This document shows positions 6,008-32,624 of a stretch of DNA of 64,000 bases, one piece after another. The position numbers were made by a program, and so were the translations under genes. The first letter of the stretch is position 1. The number at the start of each line of letters is the position of its first letter. The notes beneath the pieces were generated by a model. That model was not told the DNA's origin and made no database searches. It was given only the letters and a program-made list of their open reading frames with translations. Source of the stretch: Candidatus Saccharibacteria bacterium 49-20 (GTDB lineage Bacteria > Patescibacteriota > Saccharimonadia > Saccharimonadales > Saccharimonadaceae); contig MKSN01000001.1 of assembly GCA_001897295.1 (NCBI GenBank), forward strand, positions 248,001 through 312,000, read 5' to 3'.

Positions 6008-6691
6008 ATGCGAAAGCGGCGAGCAATTGTGGTGTTTGTGGTAGGTACGATTGTGCTTATTTTGTTCGCAGGGTCTCTGCCCAGTTTGCTCGAGGCGCCT
6101 TTGACAGAAGAGCCTCGAAGTTCTATTGAAGCTACGAGTTCGGCGACGGAAGCCCTCGAAACGCTCGAAGTAAAGGGGCGTGCACCGAAAACAAATTATG
6201 CACGTGCTCAATTTGGTGACGGCTGGGCAACGGTCAATGGGTGCACGACGCGCAATATTATTTTGCACCGTGACCTCGAAGATACTACTGTTGATGAGGC
6301 GTGTCGCGTTGTCTCGGGGGTACTTCATGATCCATATTCTGGCGAGACAATTCAATTCTCGAAAGACGATAGCAGTAAGGTGCAGATTGATCATGTGGTT
6401 GCGTTGTCGGACGCCTGGCAAAAAGGTGCGCAAAATCTGTCGAAAGAGAGGCGTACGCAGCTTGCAAACGATCCACTTGAGCTTCTTGCGGTGCAGGGGG
6501 CGGCCAATCAAGCAAAGAGCGATGGCGATGCGGCGACGTGGCTACCAAAAAACAAAGCATTTCGCTGTGAATATATTGCGAGGCAGATTGCAGTAAAAAA
6601 GAAATACTTGTTATGGGTAACGGCTGCTGAGAAAGATGCTATGCGCGCGGTACTACAGGGTTGTCCGACTCAAGCGCTTCCTGCGTCGTAA
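6008..6691 (+). CDS. Secreted or membrane-anchored HNH endonuclease-family protein (DUF1524/GmrSD-type C-terminus)
   Basis: The ATG at 6008 gives a 227-residue protein. It starts with basic MRKRR and a hydrophobic segment (about residues 6-26), a signal peptide or anchor. The C-terminal half carries IDHVVALSDAWQKGA, followed by the asparagine-containing stretch NDPLELLAVQGAANQAK and DAATWLPKN, the His-Asn-His layout of secreted DUF1524-type nucleases. Two cysteine pairs could form disulfides outside the cell. A secreted nuclease would suit an epibiont that salvages nucleotides; that role is inference. Confidence 0.72.
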   Translation: MRKRRAIVVFVVGTIVLILFAGSLPSLLEAPLTEEPRSSIEATSSATEALETLEVKGRAPKTNYARAQFGDGWATVNGCTTRNIILHRDLEDTTVDEACRVVSGVLHDPYSGETIQFSKDDSSKVQIDHVVALSDAWQKGAQNLSKERRTQLANDPLELLAVQGAANQAKSDGDAATWLPKNKAFRCEYIARQIAVKKKYLLWVTAAEKDAMRAVLQGCPTQALPAS

Positions 6692-6698
6692 TACCCAC

Positions 6699-6727
6699 TT
6701 GCGGAATTGATTAAACTGAACTATACT
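6699..6727 (+). promoter_or_regulatory. nusA promoter
   Basis: TTGCGG (6699-6704) and TATACT (6722-6727) are separated by 17 bp. The predicted start is near 6734, giving a leader of about 54 nt. Confidence 0.65.
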
Positions 6728-6740
6728 ATGAGCAGTACAT

Positions 6741-6764
6741 TCCGGCCGGCAGGTCGGATTTTTT
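6741..6764 (+). terminator. Intrinsic terminator inside the nusA leader (attenuator candidate)
   Basis: TCCGGCC (6741-6747) pairs with GGTCGGA (6752-6758) through one G-U pair and a GGCA loop. Six T residues (6759-6764) follow at once. It lies about 7 nt after the predicted transcription start and 24 nt before the nusA start codon. Since NusA stimulates intrinsic termination, this would close a negative feedback loop. The structure is seen; its function is inferred. Confidence 0.7.
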
Positions 6765-6787
6765 AATCAGAAAGGATTGAAATAACT

Positions 6788-7918
6788 ATGGATGAATTAA
6801 ACCTAAAACAATTGACCCTTGCAGTCCGCACTATTGCAGACGAGAAGAACTTGCCAGAAGAGACTGTACTTTCAGTAATCGAGCAAGCAATTGCGGCTGC
6901 ATGGCGTCGTGACAACGGTGAGCGCGACCAAGAAGTACGCGCAGAACTTAACACCAACAACGGAACTGCGATTGTGTACGTTGGTCGCGAAGTTGTCGAA
7001 GCTGTTGGGAGCGAAGCGCACGAAATTAGCCTCGAAGATGCACGTAAGGTAAAGGCAGACGCTGAACTTGGCGACATCATTGAAGACAAGTACGAAGTCA
7101 CGAGCTTTGGACGCGTTGCTGCGCAAACTGCAAAGCAAGTGGTGCTTCAGCGTCTTCGTGAAGCTGAGCGTGAAGTTGTACTCGAAGAGTACGAAGACAA
7201 GATTGGTACGGTTGTAACCGGTACCGTACAGCGTGTTGAGCCGCGTGTGGTTCGCGTTGAAATTGGTAAGGCAAGCGGAATTATTCCACAGAGCGAACAA
7301 ATTCAGGGCGAATTTTACAGCGTCGGTAGCCGCGTAAAGGTATTTATTAAAGACATCGAACGCGAAAACCGTGGTCCACAGCTTATTCTTAGTCGTGGTA
7401 ATGAGCAGTTTGTTGAATACCTCTTCCGCCAAGAAGTTCCTGAACTTGAAACTGGTGCGGTTGAAATTAAGGCAATCGCTCGTGAAGCGGGTCGCCGTAC
7501 GAAGCTTGCGGTTGCAAGTGCAGTTCCTGGTGTTGACCCAGTGGGTACGTTCGTCGGTGGTCACGGTACTCGTGTGCAGGCTGTGATGAACGAAATTGGT
7601 GATCAAGAAAAAATTGACATTGTGACTTTCGATGAAAACTCGGAGCAATTTATCAAGAACGCCCTTAGCCCAGCTGAAGTAGTGAAGGTTGAGATCGATG
7701 AAGAAGCAAAGCGTGCGAAGGTATTTGTATCTGAAGACCAGCAATCAATTGCGATTGGTCGCGGTGGCCAAAACGTTCGCCTTGCAAGTCGTCTTTCGGG
7801 TTATGAACTTGATATTGAGCAGGCAACTGCTGCGACTGCCCCTAAGGCAGCTGAAAAGCCAAAGAAGAACATCGAAGACAGCCTTCTGAGCGCTGTTGAA
7901 GAAGCAACTGAAGAATAG
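6788..7918 (+). CDS. nusA: Transcription termination/antitermination factor NusA
   Basis: NusA binds RNA polymerase and controls pausing, termination and antitermination. The 376 residues show the N-terminal RNAP-binding domain (1 to about 125), an S1 domain (GTVVTGTVQRVEPRVVRVEIG, about 135-205) and two KH domains. The second KH domain carries AIGRGGQNVRLASRLSGYEL. A short acidic tail follows, without the E. coli-type C-terminal repeats. AAAGGA lies upstream of the ATG. rimP and infB, the usual neighbours, are absent, so nusA is a single gene here, followed by its own terminator. Confidence 0.96.
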   Translation: MDELNLKQLTLAVRTIADEKNLPEETVLSVIEQAIAAAWRRDNGERDQEVRAELNTNNGTAIVYVGREVVEAVGSEAHEISLEDARKVKADAELGDIIEDKYEVTSFGRVAAQTAKQVVLQRLREAEREVVLEEYEDKIGTVVTGTVQRVEPRVVRVEIGKASGIIPQSEQIQGEFYSVGSRVKVFIKDIERENRGPQLILSRGNEQFVEYLFRQEVPELETGAVEIKAIAREAGRRTKLAVASAVPGVDPVGTFVGGHGTRVQAVMNEIGDQEKIDIVTFDENSEQFIKNALSPAEVVKVEIDEEAKRAKVFVSEDQQSIAIGRGGQNVRLASRLSGYELDIEQATAATAPKAAEKPKKNIEDSLLSAVEEATEE

Positions 7919-8923: not shown

Positions 8924-8950
8924 TTAGCACTCTATTGCATGGAGTGCTAA
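8924..8950 (+). promoter_or_regulatory. CIRCE operator (HrcA) upstream of clpC
   Basis: TTAGCACTC (8924-8932), a 9-nt spacer, then GAGTGCTAA (8942-8950) is an exact match to the CIRCE inverted repeat bound by the heat-shock repressor HrcA. A TATACT -10 box follows at 8957-8962, so bound repressor would cover the promoter. Confidence 0.95.
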
Positions 8951-8968: not shown

Positions 8969-9022
8969 ATGAATAGTGAGGGAATTATGAAATTCTCTTG
9001 CACTTCACACTATGGAGGATAG
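8969..9022 (+). CDS. Possible 17-codon upstream reading frame in the clpC leader
   Basis: An ATG at 8969 lies 6 nt after the TATACT box and opens a frame encoding MNSEGIMKFSCTSHYGG, ending with TAG at 9020-9022. The GGAGG that would serve clpC (9014-9018) is inside its last codons, so its translation could affect access to the clpC ribosome binding site. It may be a coupled leader peptide or chance. Confidence 0.35.
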   Translation: MNSEGIMKFSCTSHYGG

Positions 9023-9033
9023 ATAATAGATAT

Positions 9034-11514
9034 ATGTCTGATGATTTTGCAGAATTCATCTCGCACTTGACCGACAACGCTCGGACAAGTCTTCATCACG
9101 CAACACTTATTGCGCAAGGGTACGGCAGCTCCTATGTGGGAACCGAACACTTGTTGCTCGGCGTGATGGCTCAGGGTGCATCGGTTGGTGCAAAAATCCT
9201 TGCAGATGCAGGGGTTACCCTCGATAAGGCGCAATCAGCGCTAAGTGCGGTGCCCATTACCGCGAACTTTACTTCAGGAATTATGACAAAGAACCTGAGC
9301 GAAACGGCCAAACTTACTTTGAAGATGAGCTGGGATGTCGCACAGGAATTTCGCCAAGATTACCTAGGTACTGAGCATATTTTGTACAGTATTTTGTCAC
9401 AGAAAAATGCACGCGCAACCGTGCTGCTTCGTGACATGAATGTTGATATTGCCGAGATTCTTTCTGAGCTTGAAGAGTACCTTGATCGTAATAGCGAAAC
9501 AAACAATGGTTCGATAGAAGAACTCGAGCGTCCATTGAAGCAGCCTCGTGAGAAGGGTCTATTGGGTGTATTTGGTACTGACCTCACCGCACGAGCCAAA
9601 GCGGGCAAACTCGATCCAGTTATTGGTCGCCAGGAGCAAGAAGAGCGCCTCGTCACAATCTTAAGTCGTCGTACGAAAAATAACCCGGTCCTTATTGGCG
9701 AGCCTGGAGTGGGCAAGACGGCTATCGTTGAAGGTATCGCACAGCGTATCGCGAGCGAAGATGTCCCCGAGCACTTGCTTGATAAGCGAATCGTACAACT
9801 TGACCTCGCGGGTATGATCGCGGGTACAAAGTATCGTGGTGAGTTTGAAGAGCGCCTCAAAAAAGTGGTCGCTGAGCTTCAAGAGCAAAAGAATGTGATC
9901 GTCTTTATTGATGAACTTCACCTACTGGTAGGCGCAGGTGCGGCTGAGGGTGCGTTAGACGCGGCAAATATGCTCAAGCCTGCACTTGCACGCGGTGAAA
10001 TGCGCTTGATTGGCGCAACCACGCTAGAGGAATACCGTAAACATATTGAAAAAGATACTGCCCTCGAGCGTCGCCTTCAGTCGATTATTGTGCCCGAGCC
10101 AAAAACCAAAGACACAATCGCAATTTTAAAGGGCCTTAAATCGTATTACGAAAAGCACCACGGCGTTGCAATTAGTGACGAGATTATCGAAGACGCAGTG
10201 TACATGGCAGACCGTTATGTAAGCGAACGCTTTATGCCCGACAAGGCAATTGACGTGATTGATGAAGCCGCGGCGCGCGTACGGGTGAAGGCTGGCCACA
10301 AGCCAAGTAAGGTGCGCGATTACGTCAAGCAGCTTAAGAACCTCAACGAGAAGATGGAAGAAGCGGTTGCCTCTGAGGAGTACGAGCGAGCTGCGCTTTA
10401 CAAAACCCGTATTAGTCAGCTAAATGAAAAGCTTGATGAGTCGCGTGAAGAAAGCGAAAAGAAAACTCCAATTCAACTCACCGATGAAGATATCGCCCAA
10501 GCGATTGCGCAGATGACGGGAATTCCCGTGAAGCGTGTGCAGAAGTCTGAGGCAAAAATGCTTCGGACGCTCGAAAAGCACCTTGGCAAATACGTTATCG
10601 GTCAGGAAGAAGCGGTAGAGAAGGTGGCGCGTGCGATTCGACGTAGCCGCAGTGGCGTCGCGAGTAATAAGCGCCCTATTGGTTCGTTTGTGTTCATGGG
10701 TCCAACGGGCGTAGGTAAGACTGAACTGGCACGTGTACTGGCGCGTGAAGTATTCGGCAGCGACGATGCGCTTATTAAAATTGATATGAGTGAGTTTAGC
10801 GAGCGCCACAATACAAGTCGATTACTTGGTGCGCCGGCGGGGTATGTCGGCTATGAAGACGGGGGGCAACTTACTGATAAGATTCGTCGCCAACCGTATA
10901 GTGTCGTATTGTTTGACGAAATTGAAAAAGCAAATAAAGAAGTATTTAATTTACTACTCCAACTTCTTGAAGACGGTAAAATTACCGACGCCAAGGGTCG
11001 TTCGGTCGACTTTAGTAATGCAATCATCATTCTGACAAGCAACCTTGGGGCTGAGCAAATGATGAAAGAGTCAAGCCTTGGATTCCATGCGTCGTCTCGC
11101 CAGGATGAAAAGCAGCTCGATGCGGTGCATGCCGAAAATGCAGCTGCTGCGAAAGAGGCGCTTGAAAAACTCATGCGCCCAGAGCTCATTAATCGCTTTG
11201 ATTCAATTGTGACGTTCCGCGCGCTTACGCGTAAAGAGGTTGGTAAGATTTTTGACACGCTTCTAAGTGAGCTGCAAGGGCGCCTCGTTCGCAAGGGTGT
11301 CCATCTTATGGTTGCGCCTTCTGCAAAGCGTCTTATCATTGCCGAAGGGTACGATGAGAAGTACGGTGCGCGCCCACTAAGGCGTGCGATGCAAGAACTA
11401 CTTGAGCATGTGGTTGCAGAGGGTATACTAAGTGGAGAATATGATAAGGGTACTGTGCTAAAAGCAACTGCACAAAAGGGTAACATTCAACTTCATGTCG
11501 AACACGAAAACTAG
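9034..11514 (+). CDS. clpC: ATP-dependent Clp protease ATPase subunit ClpC
   Basis: HSP100 unfoldase that feeds substrates to ClpP. Domains: the double Clp N repeat (1 to about 150), AAA-1 with [13 protein letters not shown] near residue 222, a UvrB/UvrC-like middle segment ([16 protein letters not shown] near 440), AAA-2 with [14 protein letters not shown] near 555, and the D2-small C-terminal domain. The middle segment marks ClpC rather than ClpA or ClpB. The ATG at 9034 fits the family N-terminus; an in-frame TTG at 8998 would add 12 unrelated residues. Transcription is probably controlled by HrcA through the upstream CIRCE, as for clpP at 32661. Confidence 0.95.
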
Positions 11515-32597: not shown

Positions 32598-32624
32598 TTA
32601 GCACTCACTTGACCTGAGTGCTAA
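32598..32624 (+). promoter_or_regulatory. CIRCE operator (HrcA) upstream of clpP
   Basis: TTAGCACTC (32598-32606), a 9-nt spacer and GAGTGCTAA (32616-32624) is an exact CIRCE. A -35-like TTGACC (32609-32614) lies in its centre and -10 TACAAT is at 32633-32638, so HrcA binding would block RNA polymerase directly. Confidence 0.95.

Follow-up and report, generated by a model that had tools for sequence, protein, structure and literature searches.

In the window (the whole stretch of DNA analysed here, 64,000 nucleotides from Candidatus Saccharibacteria bacterium 49-20), open-reading frame and domain searches revealed a nusA gene on the forward strand (6788-7918; 376 amino acids, with the ATG at 6788). 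Its product scores 376 bits with TIGR01953, whose cut-off is 253, and harbors the NusA_N, S1 and KH domains. The gene upstream of it (GmrSD_C) lies on the same strand and ends at 6691. Several elements, also on the forward strand, were recognized between the two genes by reading the sequence: a weak -35 element, TTGCGG (6699-6704; three of the six consensus bases, and absent from the list of a consensus scan), a -10 element, TATACT (6722-6727), at a spacing of 17 nt, and a probable Shine-Dalgarno sequence, AGAAAGGA (6769-6776). Placed from the promoter boxes, TTGCGG-17-TATACT, the predicted start of the nusA RNA is about A6734, and thus a leader of about 54 nt and a terminated RNA of about 31 nt would result. 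This RNA would begin with a 5' tail, AGUACAUU (6734-6741), the last base of which doubles as the base of the stem. Sequence, folding and conservation indicate a terminator hairpin of seven pairs at 6741-6758, in which 6741-6747 (TCCGGCC) pairs with 6752-6758 (GGTCGGA) around the loop GGCA (6748-6751), and the one G.U pair, G6745 with U6754, is the weak pair of the stem. A run of six T residues (6759-6764) follows, where the terminated RNA is predicted to end, and the G+C-rich hairpin with a T-run directly after it is a feature of intrinsic terminators. The sequence-only reading of this DNA had noted a hairpin with six T residues in the nusA leader, a few nucleotides after the predicted start; both points were confirmed, the hairpin lying about 7 nt from the predicted start at about 6734 and 13 bases downstream of the -10 box.

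Folding of 6734-6764 gives this hairpin at -12.4 kcal/mol (z = -3.5, equalled by none of 200 shuffles), and folding of 6734-6790 gives z = -4.2. A second, A+U-rich hairpin is predicted at 6760-6782, across the T-tract and the Shine-Dalgarno region, with the Shine-Dalgarno sequence partly in its loop; its sequence is common to the window and L003 and is not general. The window site is unconvincing by itself, because a simple scan of the first 14 kb found 10 terminator-like sites against a mean of 14.7 in shuffles, and the nusA promoter was not listed by a consensus scan of the same 14 kb. Judged by the sequences of the relatives, once these are compared, the leader hairpin is more than chance. 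Two perfect CIRCE inverted repeats (8924-8950 and 32598-32624; 0.02 expected) were also found in the window, which we take, from the consensus, to be operators of HrcA; the first lies just upstream of an open-reading frame (8998-11514) that appears to encode a Clp ATPase-like protein.

The comparison set consists of the window and the best 80 of 107 relatives from a NusA search, most of them titled Candidatus Saccharibacteria; as these relatives are partly the same genomes as those of the class-wide survey, the counts are not independent. Each of the 81 leaders has CGGCC-loop-GGTCG once in the 600 nt before nusA, or in as many of these as the contig covers. The check proposed by the sequence-only reading, whether other Saccharibacteria keep the hairpin, thereby had a positive outcome. 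The longest T-run is at least five in 74 of the 81 leaders, at least four in 79 and three in two, and in some relatives the T-tract is interrupted beside the stem (AACTTTT, AATTTTT). When four duplicates and two leaders at contig edges are set aside, the 75 distinct rows that remain align with 12 invariant columns, every one of them within the stem or the T-tract. The inner five pairs of the stem are unchanged in all 75 rows, and the two outer pairs covary in a compensatory manner, giving the family consensus (T/G)(C/T)CGGCC...GGTCG(G/A)(A/C). Among 74 leaders, the mean pairwise identity is 0.91 in the hairpin and 0.89 in the T-tract, but 0.45 directly 3' of the T-tract, 0.27 about 50 nt upstream and 0.42 at third codon positions over the first 40 codons of nusA. 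The pair probability of the hairpin is higher than 0.9 in 68 of the 81 leaders and lower than 0.5 in eight, and when 60 nt of nusA are folded together with the leader, a different pairing is preferred in eight of the 81. The stretch from the hairpin to the ATG (19-128 nt) varies in both length and sequence, and no conserved antiterminator was recognized between the T-tract and the ATG.

The hairpin is linked to a promoter. In 42 of 79 leaders, 13 or 14 nt separate the hairpin from the end of the most -10-like hexamer found in the 60 nt preceding it. The intergenic regions of the 81 loci show a -10 box with a terminator-like hairpin after it upstream of nusA in 70 of 77 cases, versus 20 of 210 upstream of other genes, and 15 of these 20 are CIRCE repeats. 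GTACA, moreover, was found after 31 of 47 nusA promoters and after none of 71 other promoters of the same loci; it is therefore ruled out as a general promoter feature, and the tail seems to be part of the element within the family. Because the spacing between tail and hairpin varies among relatives, the identity of the tail is just 0.36 when anchored on the hairpin, and the GTACA tail fades beyond the family, outside which it is not conserved. These findings bear on the possibility that the hairpin is merely the terminator of the upstream gene, nusA being transcribed from elsewhere. In the window genome, where the same-strand upstream gene ends at 6691 and a simple scan listed no further terminator-like site between this end and the hairpin, such an arrangement would fit, and the hairpin may additionally stop transcripts of the GmrSD_C gene there. 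However, at 26 of 77 loci the gene before nusA is encoded on the other strand, and the spacing from the -10 box to the hairpin is kept while the distance to the ATG is variable, so that mere termination of the upstream gene does not explain the hairpin in general; since the GTACA at the start is also specific to nusA, we consider this possibility very improbable.

The element is almost entirely restricted to nusA. In the window genome (904,897 bp in one contig), the core occurs in one exact copy, and the next-best site has two mismatches, no second site with fewer than two being present on either strand. Similarly, the model R1 gave a single match in this genome at E-values up to 10 (150 of 271 candidates scored). 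It could be supposed from the conservation of both tail and hairpin that the 31-nt RNA is itself the conserved product, acting in trans, but the lack of a second site with fewer than two mismatches to the core leaves it with no obvious target in the genome, and we find this supposition barely credible. Across 294 genomes of the class, R1 matched 142 at E-values up to 0.1, 82 of them in the window's own family and 60 in other families of the order. In all 60 of the latter, nusA lies downstream of the best match, and in the own family the match adjoins nusA in 79 of the 82 genomes (coordinates compared by eye in all but G326), whereas those in G221 and G300 lie away from nusA. In one of the 60, G327:C15 (L242 and L366), about 230 nt separate the hairpin from nusA, and the unusually long spacer is rich in inverted repeats and has no Rfam match.

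Second R1 matches were found in four genomes (G161, G193, G215 and G034). A regulon was considered and rejected: of the two second matches inspected, L271 is an ordinary, fully paired terminator ending another gene, and L270 is a further nusA leader at a contig end. G034 thus has two nusA leaders, one with a strong match on C9 (L270, the contig end) and one with a weak match on C15, where the adjoining nusA has an internal stop; this genome is perhaps a mixed assembly. Viral copies of the core were considered as well. Twenty-two viral contigs, many of them near-identical, match the pattern, and two near-identical ones carry a short T-run at the core match; in none is a nusA-like start preceded by promoter, hairpin and T-tract together, and the matches were taken as chance.

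The weakness of the stem lies in its middle, at the pair four steps up from the stem foot. Among 168 hairpins, namely the 81 family leaders, 59 of 60 from the order's other families and 28 of 36 from genera g2 and g11 (which are mostly missed by R1), this pair is G.U in 142, mismatched in 25, A-U in one and G-C in none, a count conditional on the CG neighbours of the pair that the search patterns require. In the family it is G.U in 81 of 81 leaders, 79 of which fit the T-tract rule of the count, with L017 and L075 (both G.U) added, and in the order's other families the 59 fitting leaders comprise 58 G.U and one A-U. The 28 of g2 and g11 comprise nine G.A, eight A.C, five A.G, three G.G and three G.U. 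Left out of the count were L235 and L143, L151, L153, L252, L258, L262, L266 and L269; two of these, L153 and L266, gave A.C in a count that had some hairpins out of register. The exceptions are an A-U pair in L223, L162 and L165 (the latter two of the order, by eye) and fully Watson-Crick stems, again by eye, in L188, L189 and L191 of another family of the class and in L281, L283 and L287 outside the class. A single inherited state may account for the G.U of the order; the mismatches of g2 and g11, as their sequences read, are changes that preserve the defect and not the letters.

Leader stems have seven pairs in 80 of the 81 cases, with a median of -11.6 kcal/mol, whereas 79 terminator-like hairpins at the 3' ends of genes in the same loci (a set that includes some CIRCE repeats and irregular folds) have medians of 10 pairs and -13.2 kcal/mol (Mann-Whitney p = 0.0003). 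None of the 81 leader stems but 33 of the 79 3'-end terminators are fully Watson-Crick, so that the suboptimal terminator hairpin that is a feature of NusA-autoregulated attenuators is present throughout the family set. Because the leader stems are shorter and weaker than 3'-end terminators, and have the weak pair, we read them as selected, within the order, to terminate suboptimally. Partial termination would follow from a weak stem alone, and every sequence feature fits equally well a terminator that leaks constitutively and cuts nusA transcription by a constant factor, with no feedback from NusA. A fixed trimming, however, could be given by a weaker promoter, and the maintenance of a nusA-specific element across the order suggests a signal tied to the gene; as feedback also has a precedent in B. 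subtilis (described in a part of PMC12288461), we think the leaky terminator unlikely.

Of the 36 leaders covered in g2 and g11, seven have no such hairpin adjoining nusA. In genus g2, L151, L258, L269, L143, L252 and L262 lack the hairpin and have other sequence before the start, which in L151, L258 and L269 includes a similar GCGCGAATAA-like palindromic repeat in place of the hairpin. Among 30 class genomes with no R1 match (10 in the order and 20 beyond), a hairpin and T-tract before nusA were recognized by eye in 24, with differing hairpin sequences; L177 is doubtful, and no hairpin was recognized by eye in five (L166, L171, L174, L186 and L190). A CIRCE-like repeat overlaps the nusA promoter (by eye) in L176, L178 and L181, which belong to another family of the class, and thus nusA there may be under the heat-shock control of HrcA. 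Outside the class, an automatic hairpin test of 78 of the 103 nusA leaders found, namely those retrieved with a clear start, was positive in 33, versus zero to three of 78 in ten shuffles, which do not model terminators of upstream genes. No relevant Rfam match was found at 35 nusA loci outside the class; sub-threshold L20_leader matches near nusA in L330 (231-344, forward strand) and L326 (69-211, reverse strand) are probably due to chance. It has also to be considered that the hairpin may bind a protein (NusA or a ribosomal protein) and act on translation or mRNA stability, the T-tract being incidental. That the stem and the GTACA tail are so highly conserved does suggest sequence recognition, but a T-run of at least five in 74 of 81 leaders, a distance to the ATG ranging over 19-128 nt, and the retention of hairpin and T-tract with a changed stem sequence in two genera and other families all speak against this, and it seems to us distinctly unlikely.

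The reading that we favor, and regard as reasonably probable, is that the nusA leader is a minimal NusA-responsive transcription attenuator, similar in action to the rimP-leader and the B. subtilis leader. RNA polymerase would start at about 6734 and make the short tail, next the seven-pair hairpin with its built-in weak pair and then six U residues, with possible release of a 31-nt RNA at about 6764; some 30 bases downstream of the start, the hairpin probably halts transcription. The weak stem would need NusA for good termination, so that high NusA would lower nusA transcription and low NusA would let the polymerase read through. Conservation across the order suggests that NusA keeps its own synthesis in check. 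The gene for a termination stimulator, a weak stem, a T-tract, no conserved alternative fold and no ligand-binding region together suggest that the protein serves as its own signal, and with NusA in that role no antiterminator would be needed. As a speculation, the conserved tail may contact the S1/KH surface of NusA. At about +30, sigma may still occupy the site of NusA on the polymerase, which counts against the attenuator reading, as do the exceptions to the weak pair, the leaders with no such hairpin in g2, g11 and elsewhere in the class, and the eight leaders with a competing fold. The autoregulation proposed by the sequence-only reading is partly supported, inasmuch as the element is nusA-specific, promoter-linked and weak in its stem, and has the precedent of B. 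subtilis (part of PMC12288461), whereas NusA as the setter of the level is what we infer and the start is a predicted one.

A farther-reading version is put forward tentatively, and we think it more doubtful than not: the 31-nt RNA would be among the smallest protein-sensing attenuators, NusA would have to join the polymerase before it has made more than 30 bases, at the time sigma departs, and would complete a stem kept imperfect by evolution, the leader would report free NusA at promoter escape, and lineage-specific stems would control nusA widely in Patescibacteria, independently of rimP. If NusA were already bound at about +30, the leader would be a very direct sensor of free NusA. The element offers a minimal natural test bed for NusA-driven intrinsic termination (a 31-nt RNA, one gene and one protein), with many natural variants having the defect at the same pair, and a new RNA motif for the annotation of Saccharibacteria. 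If the attenuator reading is true, ultra-small genomes that lack rimP and a nusA operon have nevertheless kept the regulation of NusA through its own terminators.

Among the papers listed by literature searches, none describes the element for Saccharibacteria or Patescibacteria, and none, by title and abstract, gives start-site data for Saccharibacteria. The original study on B. subtilis nusA attenuation is reportedly that of Mondal et al. in 2016. The NusA of B. subtilis is autoregulated via NusA-stimulated termination in its own leader, according to the part of PMC12288461 used here, and as in that system an intrinsic terminator exists in the 5' leader of the NusA-encoding unit; the leader here is, however, much shorter, and its response to NusA is a predicted one. 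In B. subtilis, the dependence of terminators on NusA and NusG is tied to weak hairpins and T-tract interruptions (part of PMC8060035), and both a weak hairpin and, in some relatives, interruptions on the stem side of the T-tract are recognized here; in the NusG terminators, as that part describes them, the weak pairs lie at the stem foot, whereas here the weak pair is in mid-stem.

The closest known system is the rimP-leader (Rfam RF01770), a short conserved terminator that is described as the most ubiquitous attenuator, without an antiterminator in most species, and for which NusA was proposed as the regulator (Naville and Gautheret 2010; part of PMC2965389). The two share a short conserved terminator stem with a U-tract before the nusA transcription unit, a proposed regulation by NusA and a variable distance to the gene (4-130 nt in the rimP-leader and 19-128 nt here). 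They also share the lack of an antiterminator, none being conserved here, and so this lack, which the sequence-only reading had put down to an absence of room, is nothing unusual, at least in view of this part of PMC2965389. The differences are that the stem is GGGc...gCCC in the rimP-leader and CGGCC...GGTCG with a fixed G.U here (81 of 81), that rimP is the first gene there while nusA directly follows the hairpin here, and that the hairpin here lies about 7 nt past the predicted start, compared with a B. subtilis leader of about 180 nt. rimP (PF02576) was found in none of 99 class genomes versus 10 of 14 control genomes. The RF01770 cut-off, that of a narrow model which one of 14 controls passes, was passed by none of 116 genomes of the phylum, the window's own included, and no RF01770 match was found in 6600-6900 of the window at E-values up to 10. 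As the stem motif, the first position of rimP and the RF01770 score all fail to fit, we call the element a new variant, the 'nusA-leader'.
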